The translations under genes and the position numbers were made by a program. The notes under the pieces are model-generated. The model made no database searches and had not been told where the DNA came from. It saw only the letters and a list, made by a program, of their open reading frames with translations. Shown here in pieces: positions 2,286-40,335 of a stretch of DNA of 41,941 bases. Position 1 is the first letter of the stretch, and every line of letters begins with the position of its first letter. Origin of the DNA: Clostridiaceae bacterium (GTDB lineage: Bacteria; Bacillota; Clostridia; CAYPLH01; DUMO01); assembly GCA_012839865.1 (NCBI GenBank), contig DUMO01000012.1, forward strand, positions 1-41,941, read 5' to 3'.

Positions 2286-4817
2286 CTATGCCGTTGCGAT
2301 TTGGCTTGCTTCATACAAATTCAGTTTTTCAATAGCCTGCTCCCTTATCTTGTATTTCAGGACCTTTCCTGCGGCATTCATCGGAAATTCCGTAACAAAT
2401 TCAATATAGCGGGGGGTTTTGTGCTTTGCCATGTGCAAACGGATGTATTCCCTAAGCTCGTCGGGAGTCATCTCTTCCCCGTCCTTTAGTATCACACACG
2501 CCAAAATCTCCTCTCCATACTGTTTGTCAGGAACCCCTACAACCTGGACATCTCTAACCTTTGGATGAGTATAGATGAAATCCTCTATTTCTTTTGGATA
2601 GATATTTTCGCCACCCCTGATAATCATATCCTTGATGCGTCCGGTTATCTTGAAGCAACCGTTCTCATCCCGCCTTGCCAGGTCCCCTGTATGCAGCCAG
2701 CCATCTTCATCAATTACGGCGGCAGTTGCCTCAGGCATCTTATAGTAGCCTTTCATAATGTTGTATCCTCTTGCAACAAACTCACCGTCAACATTATCCG
2801 GCAAGTCTTCTCCAGTTACAGGATGTACTATTTTGCACTCGACACCGGTCAGAGCACGGCCTACGGTATTGACACGAATATCAATGGAATCATCCACCCT
2901 GCTCATTGTGCACCCGGGCGAAGCCTCCGTCTGGCCAAAGACTATGGTTATCTCCTTCATATTCATTTTGCCGACAACATCCTGCATGACTTTCACAGGA
3001 CAGGGGCTTCCTGCCATAATGCCTGTTCTCATATGGGAGAAGTCGGTCTTCGCAAAGTCCTCATGTTCCATCATTGCAATAAACATTGTCGGAACCCCGT
3101 TTACACAGGTTATCTTTTCCCTGCTGATGCATTCGAGGGAAATCTTCGGGGAGAAGTACGGAATCGGGCACATGGTTGCGCCATGGGTCATACAGGCGGT
3201 CATGGAAAGCACCATTCCGAAGCAGTGAAACATGGGAACCTGAATAAGCATACGGTCTGCAGTTGACAAATCCATGTTGTCTCCAATGGTTTTGCCATTG
3301 TTTACCACATTGTAATGAGTAAGCATTACACCCTTGGGGAAACCTGTTGTTCCCGAGGTGTATTGCATGTTGCAGACATCATGCTTGTTGATGGAATAAG
3401 CGCGGCGGTATACCTCTTCAATCGGGACCCTACTTGCCAGTTCCAAGGCATCATCCCAGGTCAGGCAGCCTTTTTGTCTGGAGTCAATCGTAATTATATT
3501 CCTGAGAAACGGCAGGCGCTTAATATGCAATGGTTTTCCCGCCTCTGCAGTTTCCAGTTCAGGGCAAAGCTCTTTGATAATTGAAACGTAATTTGAATCC
3601 TTGTACCCGTCTATCATAACAAGTGTATGGGTATCCGACTGGCGCAGCAGGTATTCAGCTTCATAAATCTTGTAAGCGGTGTTCACAGTGACTAAAACGG
3701 CTCCAATCTTTGTGGCGGCCCAAAATGTAATAAACCACTGGGGCACGTTTGTAGCCCAAATTGCTACGTGGTCACCGGGTTTTACACCCAGGGCGATCAA
3801 AGCTCTGGCGAACGTATCCACATCCTCCCGGAACTCCGTGTAAGTTCTTGTATAATCTGTGGTTATATATTTAAATGCATACTGGTCGGGAAATTCCTCA
3901 ACAACACGGTCAAGGACCTGGGGAAAAGTCAAATCAATTAATATATCCTTCTCCCAGATGTATTTTCCGGTGTTTGATTTATTGCTGTAAAGCCGGCTCT
4001 TTAAAGAATCCTTTTTTATATACCGGCTCATATAATTTGCAAAATTAGGGAACACAACTCCGGCATCATCAAGGTCAGCCGCCCAGCGTTTTACCCATTC
4101 AAGTGAAATGTAGCCTTCGTAATTAATTGAGCGAAGTGCCATTATCATATCATCAATTGGCAAGTCGCCTTCCCCCACCATGCGATAACGTACTTTCCCA
4201 TTCTCCATTATAGAGTCCTTTAAATGAACATACTTGATATATGCGCCCAGGTTTTGTACTGTCTTGCCTGGTCTCTCACCTGCAAACCTGTAGGTATGAT
4301 GCATGTCCCAGAGAGCTGCCACCGAATCGCTTGCAGCCTGTTCAAGCAGTTTGCAGAGCCTGGTTGTATCAGAATAAACCCCGTTGGTCTCCACCAGCAG
4401 GGTGACACCTTTCTCCTCAGCCAATGGAATCAAATCTCTTAAAGCTGACAAAACAACTTCGTCATCAACTTCTCCTTCGGGATGAGGATTGAGGTCAGCC
4501 AATATTCGGATATATGGAGTTCCAAGTTTTGAAGCCAACATTATGTATTGTTCTATTTCCTGGCGGTTTTTTTGTGCGTCTTCAGGGAATTTCAGACAGC
4601 AGCCCGATGAAAGGCAGGGGATTTCCAGACGCAATGATGATAGCTTCTTCATAGTCTGAGGAAGCTGGGATTCTGTAAAAGGCTTCGCCTTAACTGCAAA
4701 AATTTGGTCGCCAAGTCCTCTTATTTCAATACCATGGAACCCAAGGTCCTTTGCCATGGTATAAATATCAACCCAGCTAAAATTCGGACAACCAAGAGTT
4801 GAAAATGCAAGTTTCAT
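2286..4817 (-). CDS. Sugar-phosphate isomerase/epimerase-like domain fused to AMP-forming acyl-CoA synthetase
   Basis: This 843-residue protein joins two complete enzymes. Residues 1-265 are a xylose-isomerase-like TIM barrel of the AP-endonuclease-2 superfamily, with metal-ligand-type residues Glu143 (LLVETNG), Asp171/His173-His174 (WDMHHTYR), His198 (YVHLKDS) and Glu240 (ISLEW). Residues 290-843 are an acyl-CoA synthetase of the FadD/CaiC type. It has the P-loop YTSGTTGFPKGVMLTH (486-501), the A5 motif FGQTE (627-631), the A7 region WLHTGDL...GRIKD (707-730) and the catalytic lysine of A10 at Lys818 (AAGKVLKYK). It would activate a carboxylic acid to its CoA thioester through an acyl-adenylate. 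The substrate and the reaction of the barrel are unknown. The ATG start has GGAGG eight bases upstream. A T-box leader lies ahead of it. Both domains look intact and no frameshift separates them. Confidence 0.9.
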   Translation of the reverse strand: MKLAFSTLGCPNFSWVDIYTMAKDLGFHGIEIRGLGDQIFAVKAKPFTESQLPQTMKKLSSLRLEIPCLSSGCCLKFPEDAQKNRQEIEQYIMLASKLGTPYIRILADLNPHPEGEVDDEVVLSALRDLIPLAEEKGVTLLVETNGVYSDTTRLCKLLEQAASDSVAALWDMHHTYRFAGERPGKTVQNLGAYIKYVHLKDSIMENGKVRYRMVGEGDLPIDDMIMALRSINYEGYISLEWVKRWAADLDDAGVVFPNFANYMSRYIKKDSLKSRLYSNKSNTGKYIWEKDILIDLTFPQVLDRVVEEFPDQYAFKYITTDYTRTYTEFREDVDTFARALIALGVKPGDHVAIWATNVPQWFITFWAATKIGAVLVTVNTAYKIYEAEYLLRQSDTHTLVMIDGYKDSNYVSIIKELCPELETAEAGKPLHIKRLPFLRNIITIDSRQKGCLTWDDALELASRVPIEEVYRRAYSINKHDVCNMQYTSGTTGFPKGVMLTHYNVVNNGKTIGDNMDLSTADRMLIQVPMFHCFGMVLSMTACMTHGATMCPIPYFSPKISLECISREKITCVNGVPTMFIAMMEHEDFAKTDFSHMRTGIMAGSPCPVKVMQDVVGKMNMKEITIVFGQTEASPGCTMSRVDDSIDIRVNTVGRALTGVECKIVHPVTGEDLPDNVDGEFVARGYNIMKGYYKMPEATAAVIDEDGWLHTGDLARRDENGCFKITGRIKDMIIRGGENIYPKEIEDFIYTHPKVRDVQVVGVPDKQYGEEILACVILKDGEEMTPDELREYIRLHMAKHKTPRYIEFVTEFPMNAAGKVLKYKIREQAIEKLNLYEASQIATA

Positions 4818-4850
4818 TCAAAATTCCTCCTATATTTTTTTACAGTGAAC

Positions 4851-4905
4851 CAGGGGACGGTTCTTCCGGTCCCCGATACCGAAAGGGGCAATTCTCCCCA
4901 GACGT
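4851..4905. repeat. REP-like palindromic repeat (RAYT-associated family)
   Basis: CAGGGGACGGTTC at 4851 begins a copy of the repeat family that flanks the transposase at 39384. A pairing partner GGTCCCC follows at 4868. It lies in the transcribed leader between the T-box terminator and the fusion gene. Confidence 0.65.
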
Positions 4906-4938: not shown

Positions 4939-5231
4939 AAAAAAGCTTTCGTCTCCATAATTTTCACACAGAGACGAAAGCCAGGCTTCCGTGGTACCAC
5001 TCTTATTGGTATGTAATATACCCACTTTACAGCATCAACTAAAACTAATGCCCTCTTTTATAACGGTCAGACAACCGGTTAAGCCTACTTGCTTACTCTA
5101 TAAGCAAAAGCTTTCAGCCAACTGCTCAAGGGTGAGTTCGTATCGCCATGTGCGCTGTTTCACAGCAACCAACAGCTCTCTTTAGCAACAAAAAGCAATA
5201 CTTTTTCCCTGTCACTGCATTTTTACATTTT
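4939..5231 (-). promoter_or_regulatory. T-box leader, probable leucine (CUC) specifier
   Basis: Read on the reverse strand this is a tRNA-sensing T-box leader. The conserved antiterminator motif AGAGTGGTACCACG is at 5003-4990. It is followed by the terminator hairpin GCTTTCGTCTC / GAGACGAAAGC and a run of six T (4981-4939). Upstream are Stem I elements: an AGAGAG bulge region near 5180, a distal loop GGTTGCTGTGAAA, and GAACTCACCC near 5139-5130. By analogy with known leaders, where GAA precedes the specifier and ACC follows it, the specifier is CUC (5136-5134), meaning leucine. Uncharged leucine tRNA should allow read-through into the fusion gene 120 bases downstream. The T-box is clear; the leucine assignment is less certain, since one-base register shifts would give ACU (Thr) or UCA (Ser). 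Confidence 0.9.
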
Positions 5232-5238
5232 TTCAGAT

Positions 5239-5267
5239 ATGCTACCAGATTAATGGCCGCTTGTCAA
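5239..5267 (-). promoter_or_regulatory. Sigma-A type promoter for the T-box transcript
   Basis: On the reverse strand TTGACA (5267-5262) is followed after 17 bases by TAGCAT (5244-5239), a moderate -10 match. Transcription would start near 5231, just ahead of the first Stem I elements, giving a leader of about 290 bases. Confidence 0.55.
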
Positions 5268-11208: not shown

Positions 11209-11376
11209 TCAGTGAATAAGGATTCGGTTTTTGAACAGTTGCGGCTCCAGCAGATGGATTCCTCCGTTGTCGTCACCAAATATGATTAATCCGTCCGCCG
11301 TGTATGCAATCGGCCAGTTGTGAAATGCTCCCCGGTTCATATAAAAATTAGAGTTGCCGGCAAAATAGTTGATCAC
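11209..11376 (-). pseudogene. Beta-propeller (PQQ-like) repeat remnant
   Basis: A 55-codon frame reads FHNWPIAYTADGLIIFGDD then NGGIHLLEPQ, which resembles one or two blades of a PQQ/quinoprotein-type propeller. It begins with GTG overlapping the TGA stop of the preceding gene (GTGA) and ends at 11209. No ribosome site or signal peptide is visible, and a whole propeller needs several hundred residues. I therefore read it as the leftover 3' end of a lost gene. The propeller assignment is by motif impression only. Confidence 0.4.
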
Positions 11377-13097
11377 TTAACCACTTGCGTATCCGGATCT
11401 ATGGAAACAGAAGAAGCTTCTCTGCCGGTATCGCCGCCGCTCTTTATTTCGAGATTAAAATTCAGGGCTGATGCGGTTCTATAACCGCCTGTTACATTAA
11501 ATACTTTAAACCCATGCTGGGCCAGGATTCGCTCTGCAAAGTAGCCCCGCAAACCAACCTGGCAGTATACGATTATAGTTTTGTCCTTGTCCAATTCATT
11601 CATCCGGCTTCTCAGGCTGTCAACCGGGATATTGATTGCTCCTTCAATATGGCCTTTCCCATACTCCACTTCGGTGCGGACATCAACCAGCATATAGCCG
11701 TCTTTATCCATGCCTTTGAATTCCTCCCATGTAATGACATGGGACCTTCCCATAAGCACATTTTGCGCAACAAAACCCGCCATATTAACTGGATCCTTTG
11801 CTGAGGAATAAGGCGGTGCATATGCTGTTTCAAGTTCAGTTAGATCATTTACAGTACCCTTTAAGCGGATAACCGTTGAAATAACATCAATTCTCTTGTC
11901 AACCCCGTCACGGCCAACACCCTGGGCGCCAAGTATTTTACCTTCATCATTGAAAATTAGTTTAAGGGTTATTGGTGTAGCTCCGGGATAATAGGAAGCA
12001 TGGGATGAAGGGTGAATTATAATTACCTTGTAGGGAATTCCTTTTGCCTTCAGGGCTTTTTCATTTGCTCCCGTACCGGCGGCAGTCAGTCCAAACACCT
12101 TGATTATGTTGGTTCCCTGAGAACCTTTATATCTTGAATCAAATCCGGCTGCATTGTCAGCGGCAATTCTTCCCTGCTTGTTTGCAGGTCCTGCGAGGGG
12201 TATGGCTGTTTTTGAACCGGTTACAAAATCAACCACCTCAACCGCATCACCAACCGCATAAACATCTTTCACATTTGTCTCCATTTTTTCATTTGCTAAA
12301 ATGTGTCCCCGTACACCGAGCTTTATCTCGCTGCCTTTCAGAAAATCCGTGTCCGGGACTACCCCGACAGCTAAAATTATAATATCTGCGATAAGCTTCC
12401 TGTTGCTGCTTAATGTGGCTTCCACCCTGTTACCGATACTTGCAAATGATTTAACACCATCATTCAAAATCAATTCAACCCCGTTACCGGCTAGTTCTTT
12501 TTCCACCAGTGCAACCATGTCCCGGTCCAGGAAGGCCAAAACATGGGGAGCCGCTTCCGTCAATGTGACATTTAAACCTCTTTCCCTCAGGTTTTCCGCC
12601 ATTTCAACTCCGATAAAACCACCGCCGATTACAATGGCATCGGCAACATCGTTTCTGTCCGCATAATGTTTGATTTTATCCGTATCATGAATATTTCTGA
12701 GGGTGAGTATTCTTTCATTGTCCACTCCCGGAATGTTTGGTACAAAAGCCTTTGAACCCGGTGAAAGAATAAGGTGATCATAGGATTCAACATATTCTCC
12801 CTTTTCTTTGCTTCTTACCGTTACACACTTCTTTTCAGTATCTATATTAATCACTTCACTGTTGGTTCGAACATCAATTGCGAATCTGCTCCTCATGGCA
12901 TCCGGAGTCTGAACCATGAGCCTGCTCCGTTCTTTTATGGTCCCGCCGATATAATAAGGCAACCCACAATTTGCATATGAAATATAATCACCACGCTCAA
13001 ACAAAATAATTTCCGCATGCTCGTCGAGCCTCCTGAGCCTTGCTGCAGCTGAAGCCCCGCCTGCCACACCGCCGACAATTACAACCTTTTTTTTCAT
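11373..13097 (-). CDS. CoA-disulfide reductase / NADH oxidase-like flavoprotein with C-terminal rhodanese domain
   Basis: The 574-residue protein begins at MKKKVVIVGG, where GGAGGTG stands seven bases ahead. The frame continues upstream to 13256, but that part has no homology. Residues 1-450 form the FAD/NAD(P)H disulfide-reductase fold. They include the FAD-binding GGVAGGASAAARLRR, the redox cysteine Cys44 in SYANCGLPYYIGG, the second dinucleotide site VIGGGFIGVEMAENL and YAVGDAVEV. Residues from about 465 onward form a rhodanese domain with DVRTEVEYGKGHIEGA and the active-site loop CQVGLRG. This fused layout is that of CoA-disulfide reductases with a rhodanese tail. Expected roles are reduction of CoA disulfide or per/polysulfides, or oxygen defence. 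The single redox cysteine favours the CoADR type over glutathione reductase. Confidence 0.92.
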   Translation of the reverse strand: MKKKVVIVGGVAGGASAAARLRRLDEHAEIILFERGDYISYANCGLPYYIGGTIKERSRLMVQTPDAMRSRFAIDVRTNSEVINIDTEKKCVTVRSKEKGEYVESYDHLILSPGSKAFVPNIPGVDNERILTLRNIHDTDKIKHYADRNDVADAIVIGGGFIGVEMAENLRERGLNVTLTEAAPHVLAFLDRDMVALVEKELAGNGVELILNDGVKSFASIGNRVEATLSSNRKLIADIIILAVGVVPDTDFLKGSEIKLGVRGHILANEKMETNVKDVYAVGDAVEVVDFVTGSKTAIPLAGPANKQGRIAADNAAGFDSRYKGSQGTNIIKVFGLTAAGTGANEKALKAKGIPYKVIIIHPSSHASYYPGATPITLKLIFNDEGKILGAQGVGRDGVDKRIDVISTVIRLKGTVNDLTELETAYAPPYSSAKDPVNMAGFVAQNVLMGRSHVITWEEFKGMDKDGYMLVDVRTEVEYGKGHIEGAINIPVDSLRSRMNELDKDKTIIVYCQVGLRGYFAERILAQHGFKVFNVTGGYRTASALNFNLEIKSGGDTGREASSVSIDPDTQVVK

Positions 13098-13321
13098 TGG
13101 ATACACCTCCGTTTTAATGGCAATATGACGTATATAGAATATTCCCCTTATATGTTTTTGGAAAACGTAAATCTTTACGCAACTTGATCTGCATTGTAAA
13201 CTTGAACAGTCCTGCAACTTGGATTTATTGTTCATTATGAGTGCAGAAAAATGCATCCTGTGCTTAAAATGTTAATGCCTACCACCTATTATACTATTAC
13301 TGGAATATAATGTCATTAACG

Positions 13322-27687: not shown

Positions 27688-27850
27688 AGGGGGACGGTTC
27701 TTGCGGTTCCCTCTGGCAAAGCGCCAGGCCAGGCCGGGACAGGACAGGGGACGGTTCTGTGTTTTATTTGGAGACAGTGGTCTTCACGGACCAGGCAGTG
27801 GCAGGAACCGTCCCCCTAATCCCGCGCTGAGACACAGAACCGTCCCCTGT
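27688..27850. repeat. REP cluster of two nested inverted pairs
   Basis: CAGGGGACGGTTCTGTGT (27745-27762) and its exact inverse ACACAGAACCGTCCCCTG (27833-27850) form one pair. AGGGGGACGGTTC (27688-27700) and GAACCGTCCCCCT (27805-27817) form another. The arms interlock instead of nesting cleanly. The cluster lies between the divergent ABC and two-component operons and may shield them from each other's transcription. Confidence 0.8.
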
Positions 27851-39374: not shown

Positions 39375-39416
39375 AAGGGACGGTTAATGTGGGCAGGACA
39401 GGGGACGGTTCTGTGT
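39375..39416. repeat. REP copies at the 3' end of the RAYT gene
   Basis: GGGACGGTT at 39378 and CAGGGGACGGTTCTGTGT at 39399-39416 belong to the palindrome family. The second copy is inside the last codons of the transposase gene. Confidence 0.85.
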
Positions 39417-40263: not shown

Positions 40264-40335
40264 CAGAGAACCGTCCCCTGTCTTGATTTATTCAGGAAAA
40301 ACAGGACAGAGAACCGTCCCCTGTCCCGCCCTGTC
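40264..40335. repeat. REP copies at the 5' end of the RAYT gene
   Basis: CAGAGAACCGTCCCCTG (40264-40280) and AGAGAACCGTCCCCTG (40307-40322) lie 43 bases apart, in the orientation opposite to the copies at 39399. Each is embedded in GACA...TGTC flanks. Confidence 0.85.

Follow-up and report, generated by a model that had tools for sequence, protein, structure and literature searches.

The question raised by this locus is why a leucine-responsive RNA leader should precede the gene of an acyl-CoA ligase. An earlier note on the window (the whole stretch of DNA analysed here, 41,941 nucleotides from a Clostridiaceae bacterium) had described a full T-box with promoter, Stem I, specifier, antiterminator and terminator. 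Every one of these parts was found, on the minus strand, and the leader had been located correctly. The covariance-model search that the note proposed places the Rfam family RF00230 at 5224–4967 (score 123.3 bits, gathering threshold 93 bits, E = 4.9e-27); the match runs through the complete model (1–219 of 219) and takes in Stem I, the Stem II/III region and the antiterminator. The promoter is of the sigma-A type, TTGACA-17-TAGCAT with an extended TG (5239–5267). A promoter scan of the region returned such sites at about the number expected by chance, so the assignment is based on position and on conservation, the −35/−10 block aligning across the leaders of orthologues. The T-box core AGAGUGGUACCACG occupies 5003–4990 on the minus strand, and the antiterminator with its T-box bulge UGGU spans 4970–5003, as judged by the sequence and the Rfam alignment. 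An intrinsic terminator of 16 pairs and a T run (4944–4982) shares sequence with the 3′ arm of the antiterminator, and the folding energy of the terminator region is −29.5 kcal/mol (z-score −3.8). Since this arm of the antiterminator (AGAG...CUCU, 5003–4970) lies inside the terminator, the two structures are mutually exclusive. The ribosome binding site, AGGAGG, is at 4826–4831. The leader is confirmed as a complete transcriptional T-box; both its Rfam score and its conservation in orthologues rule out a chance or one-off occurrence.

One copy of the 12-mer GGGGACGGTTCT lies downstream of the T-box terminator, ahead of the start codon of the gene. This element has eight copies when up to one mismatch is allowed, against 0.04 expected, at 4853–4864, 27690–27847, 39401–39412 and 40267–40321 of the window, and resembles a dispersed repeat.

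The Rfam alignment identifies the specifier triplet as CUC (5134–5136, minus strand), a leucine codon, within the context GAA-CUC-A-CCCU-UGAGC; it is kept as CUC or CUG in orthologues. Specifiers were read by a rule that uses the Stem I register and the pairing of the Stem I base, and the rule was checked on the other T-boxes of the host genome. As a script it gave the cognate amino acid for ileS, valS (twice), metG and aroF, together with plausible Asn and Ala calls. In its strict form it missed the leaders of pheS, tyrS, thrS and a gene of the aspS type, which have unusual Stem I bases and read by eye as UUC, UAC, ACC and GAC. An Ala (GCA) T-box of the same genome (L004) stands before an Lrp/AsnC-like regulator, which is followed by an aminotransferase. 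For the window leader, Asn, Thr, Ser and His frames are ruled out by the Stem I register and the CUG variants; because two leaders have CUG and the base after the codon varies, leucine is favoured over the overlapping Thr and Ser frames. The host genome encodes a tRNA-Leu(GAG) with an ACCA end (discriminator A), to which the UGGU bulge is complementary. The leucine-type specifier of the earlier note is thus borne out by the aligned CUC, by the presence of the matching tRNA and by a leucine codon in 53 of 55 orthologue leaders.

The leader serves a single gene (2286–4817, minus strand, ATG at 4817), which is monocistronic and lies between a convergent and a divergent neighbour, both on the other strand. 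It encodes an 843-residue protein, full length in its orthologues. The product is an acyl-CoA ligase, as had been claimed, and the ligase carries an N-terminal TIM barrel fused to it. The barrel (residues 22–244, 4086–4754) is of the AP_endonuc_2/xylose-isomerase-like type and is recognized by its domain match, predicted structure and invariant columns; its metal-type residues are E143, D171, H198 and E240. The AlphaFold model of the barrel has a pLDDT of 88.8, and Foldseek matches it to AsbF, Art22, UlaE and IolI at TM 0.7–0.8. We take these matches of a predicted model to define the fold and not the reaction. The AMP-binding (acyl-CoA ligase) domain PF00501 covers residues 303–692 (2742–3911, E = 2.5e-91), and the AMP-binding C-terminal domain PF13193, with the AAGK lysine, covers residues 743–818 (2364–2591; domain match and conservation). 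The motifs YTSGTTG, GQTE and GRxKD as well as the AAGK lysine are kept in orthologues, and the two domains with their catalytic motifs place the protein in the ANL superfamily. Of the NCBIfam models, PRK12583 (NF009233) fits the ligase half most closely, with 696.6 bits under a curated cut-off of 832. Elsewhere in the window, 11373–13256 on the minus strand encodes a CoA-disulfide-reductase-like protein with a rhodanese domain at its C-terminus.

When GTDB species genomes were scanned, 542 relatives came to light, and leaders were read for the best 80 of them. Nearly all of these 80 are full-length fusions with 75–85% identity; their hosts include Acetivibrio, Ruminiclostridium, Thermoclostridium, Desulforamulus, Sporomusa and many uncultured lineages. 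At least 350 nt of upstream sequence was available for 77 leaders (the window counted in), a set biased to close relatives, and 55 of the 77 have the T-box motif. The specifier is leucine in 53 of the 55, as CUC in 51 (46 read by script, five by eye) and as CUG in two, both read by script. The remaining two are a leader without Stem I (L021) and an ambiguous one (L049); three leaders that had been missed by a stricter first motif were confirmed by Rfam. Among the 80 close orthologues no conserved neighbour recurred in more than six loci, and the fusion gene stands alone. When the class was sampled evenly, the fusion turned up in 53 of 148 genomes. Outside one clade, described below, 18 of the 32 fusions with upstream sequence have the T-box motif and 14 (∼ 44%) have none. 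The link of the fusion gene to leucine is strong, and a role for the fusion in leucine supply is well supported.

We consider it probable that the leucine T-box drives an isovalerate-activating ligase, which feeds a route to leucine through VOR (a 2-oxoacid:ferredoxin oxidoreductase) and IlvE. When leucine is short, uncharged tRNA-Leu(GAG) would base-pair both to the CUC specifier and to the UGGU bulge, the antiterminator would form and the fused acyl-CoA ligase would be made. The ligase would most likely activate isovalerate (3-methylbutyrate) taken from the medium; a VOR-type enzyme would then carboxylate isovaleryl-CoA reductively to 4-methyl-2-oxopentanoate, which IlvE would aminate to leucine. 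We infer that isovalerate is what the ligase acts on and that flux runs in this direction; context supports the steps of VOR and IlvE as well as the tie to leucine supply. This scheme leaves the TIM barrel without a role.

The context comes from loci in which the fusion has conspicuous partners. One relative (G076) has an operon of VOR alpha, beta and gamma subunits, ilvE (a branched-chain aminotransferase), a LeuA-like gene and the fusion (L239:4359–11724), in which almost every gene touches or overlaps the one after it. Downstream of the G098 fusion come a P-loop gene, VOR, a regulator and an MbcS-like ligase, and G134 has the same gene set in a divergent arrangement. VOR adjoins the fusion in 3 of the 53 sampled loci, the full ligase–VOR–aminotransferase unit occurring in G076 only. 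At the level of whole genomes, VOR is present in 48 of 53 with the fusion versus 54 of 95 others (Fisher p = 1.4e-5, kinship not corrected). The host itself has a VorB-type VOR alpha subunit on contig C45, apart from the fusion (568 bits against a cut-off of 399, a family-level match), and its genome also contains an IorA-IorB-PaaK cluster. The reductive carboxylation proposed in the earlier note thus finds support in the G076 operon, in the VOR genes of G098 and G134 and in the co-occurrence of VOR with the fusion, and we would grade the VOR step as moderately supported.

Iso-branched fatty acids offer a different explanation. The isovaleryl-CoA needed for them is usually derived from leucine, and because a leucine shortage would starve the cell of this precursor, a leucine T-box would be sensible even if no leucine were synthesized: the ligase would salvage isovalerate, or another branched acid, as a primer for iso-branched membrane lipids. 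This is consistent with T-box logic, and MbcS of Staphylococcus aureus does the same job for 2-methylbutyrate and isobutyrate (PMC10026030). However, the VOR/IlvE operon, a LeuA-derived partner and a transcript shared with leuS in a relative (see below) point to amino-acid supply, and lipid genes are not prominent among the conserved neighbours. We therefore regard lipid priming as unlikely. Less likely still is a part for the enzyme in fermenting or degrading leucine, with an incidental T-box. Amino-acid fermentation also uses VOR and AMP-forming ligases, as is generally known, but a T-box switches its gene on when leucine is scarce, which is the wrong sign for breakdown, and the leucine codon is kept in 53 leaders across many genera.

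Twenty of the 53 fusions in the class sample form one supported clade on the tree, and a search upstream of these 20 found no T-box motif. Here the fusion lies directly downstream of a LeuA-like gene, mostly with an overlap of a few bases; L286:8441–9847 is an example of such a LeuA-like gene. The LeuA-like proteins are without the RDGEQ, HxHND and GER catalytic motifs, and their best-conserved columns are those of the C-terminal allosteric domain. PF08502, the LeuA allosteric domain, was found in all 20 rows scanned (19 LeuA-like proteins and, as a reference, the LeuA-family protein of the host). The LeuA-like partner would constitute a second link between the fusion and leucine. We read this as sensing of leucine through RNA in the one group and, perhaps, through a dead LeuA in the second.

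The same clade bears on the function of the barrel. In the non-LeuA group the E-D-H-E residues are invariant, both domains are fused in every full-length orthologue, and hydroxy-keto sugars and 3-dehydroshikimate are substrates of known members of the fold. All this would suit an enzyme whose ligase acts on the product of the TIM barrel and not on isovalerate, the fusion making a different leucine-related acyl-CoA in two steps. Most fusions of the LeuA-coupled clade, however, have lost the barrel metal residues while all of their ligase motifs are intact, and in Desulforamulus a ligase with no barrel is under a leucine T-box, so that we give a two-step enzyme of this kind little credence. In our reading ligase activity is probably the common core of both groups.

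The Desulforamulus case is that of Desulforamulus aeronauticus, where a CUC T-box (148.6 bits) is followed by a stand-alone ligase and then by leuS. This ligase is 53% identical to the ligase part of the fusion; the fusion of the same species is itself without a T-box. Among the members of the leucine T-box regulon of the relatives are leuA, leuS, ilvB and isopropylmalate synthase.

Pairs of a T-box and an acyl-CoA ligase were also seen for other amino acids, each at a single locus. A Phe T-box (UUC) precedes the phenylacetate-CoA ligase PaaK in Thermoclostridium caenicola (L181:236–1913), and a Tyr T-box (UAC) precedes another acyl-CoA ligase in Sporomusa acidovorans (L209:9509–11450). The host genome has a ligase similar to the latter (L094). 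An Ile T-box (AUC), with its core near position 13371 of L239 on the plus strand, stands before a fused XRE regulator–MbcS-like acyl-CoA ligase and is divergent from the VOR-fusion operon; it was read from the sequence and scores below the Rfam gathering score. It is conceivable, and we put it forward tentatively, that anaerobic Clostridia have a T-box-run salvage of acids (for Leu, with the single Phe, Tyr and Ile cases), in which the ligases activate the acid one carbon shorter than the amino acid that the T-box senses, and that in one lineage the leucine T-box gave way to a catalytically dead LeuA, which retains its leucine-binding domain and serves the ligase as a protein sensor of leucine.

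LeuB scored above its cut-off in 35 of the 37 fusion genomes tested, and the host has LeuC, LeuD and a PRK03437-type LeuB (L149:15511–18428, L150:3932–5464); leucine therefore need not come via isovalerate. The sole LeuA-family protein of the host resembles citramalate synthase and is below every cut-off. Weak scores with the leuA and leuB models had raised the possibility of a plain leucine auxotroph, against which LeuC, LeuD and LeuB of other subfamilies speak. Since most relatives keep leuB, the isovalerate route would be a supplement. One genome (G012), in which neither LeuB nor LeuA scored over the cut-offs, nevertheless carries the fusion behind a T-box; because this is a draft genome, the case is only suggestive.

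The conservation of a leucine switch before one ligase family would supply a candidate gene for isovalerate activation and tell when that gene should be switched on. The list of T-box targets would also grow, and the two groups of fusions may represent two interchangeable means, RNA and protein, of coupling one enzyme to leucine.

Formation of leucine from isovalerate was established in the rumen by labelling (Allison, 1962; 1966, as cited in PMC7356843), and rumen and other anaerobes have been known to carry it out since the 1960s. That pathway would likewise need an acyl-CoA ligase, a 2-oxoacid:ferredoxin oxidoreductase and an aminotransferase. The portions of the literature searched name no gene for the isovalerate activation step, whereas here a candidate for it and its regulation are named. 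Among ligases, S. aureus MbcS is a methylbutyryl-CoA synthetase that is poor with isovalerate and feeds lipids (PMC10026030). Like the candidate described here it is an AMP-forming ligase for branched short acids, and both G098 and G134 have MbcS-like genes in their VOR clusters, but MbcS is from a different branch of ligases (an MbcS-like gene and the fusion share ∼ 26% identity). The fusion differs from the PRK12583 fatty acid CoA ligase subfamily (NF009233) by its added N-terminal TIM barrel and by a score under the cut-off. The T-box literature searched describes no T-box on such a ligase, although the surveys of Vitreschak (2008) and Gutierrez-Preciado (2009) possibly mention one. With the leucine T-boxes of leuS, leuA and ilvB (for example the CUC leader of Bacillus subtilis ilv-leu) the window leader has in common the RNA architecture, the CUC codon, which is the specifier in 74% of the Leu T-boxes in TBDB (PMC7778990), and transcription antitermination. 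Its target, in contrast, is a TIM-barrel-fused acyl-CoA ligase and not a tRNA ligase, a transporter or a classical biosynthetic gene: the T-box itself is ordinary, and what it controls appears, within the literature searched, to be new.
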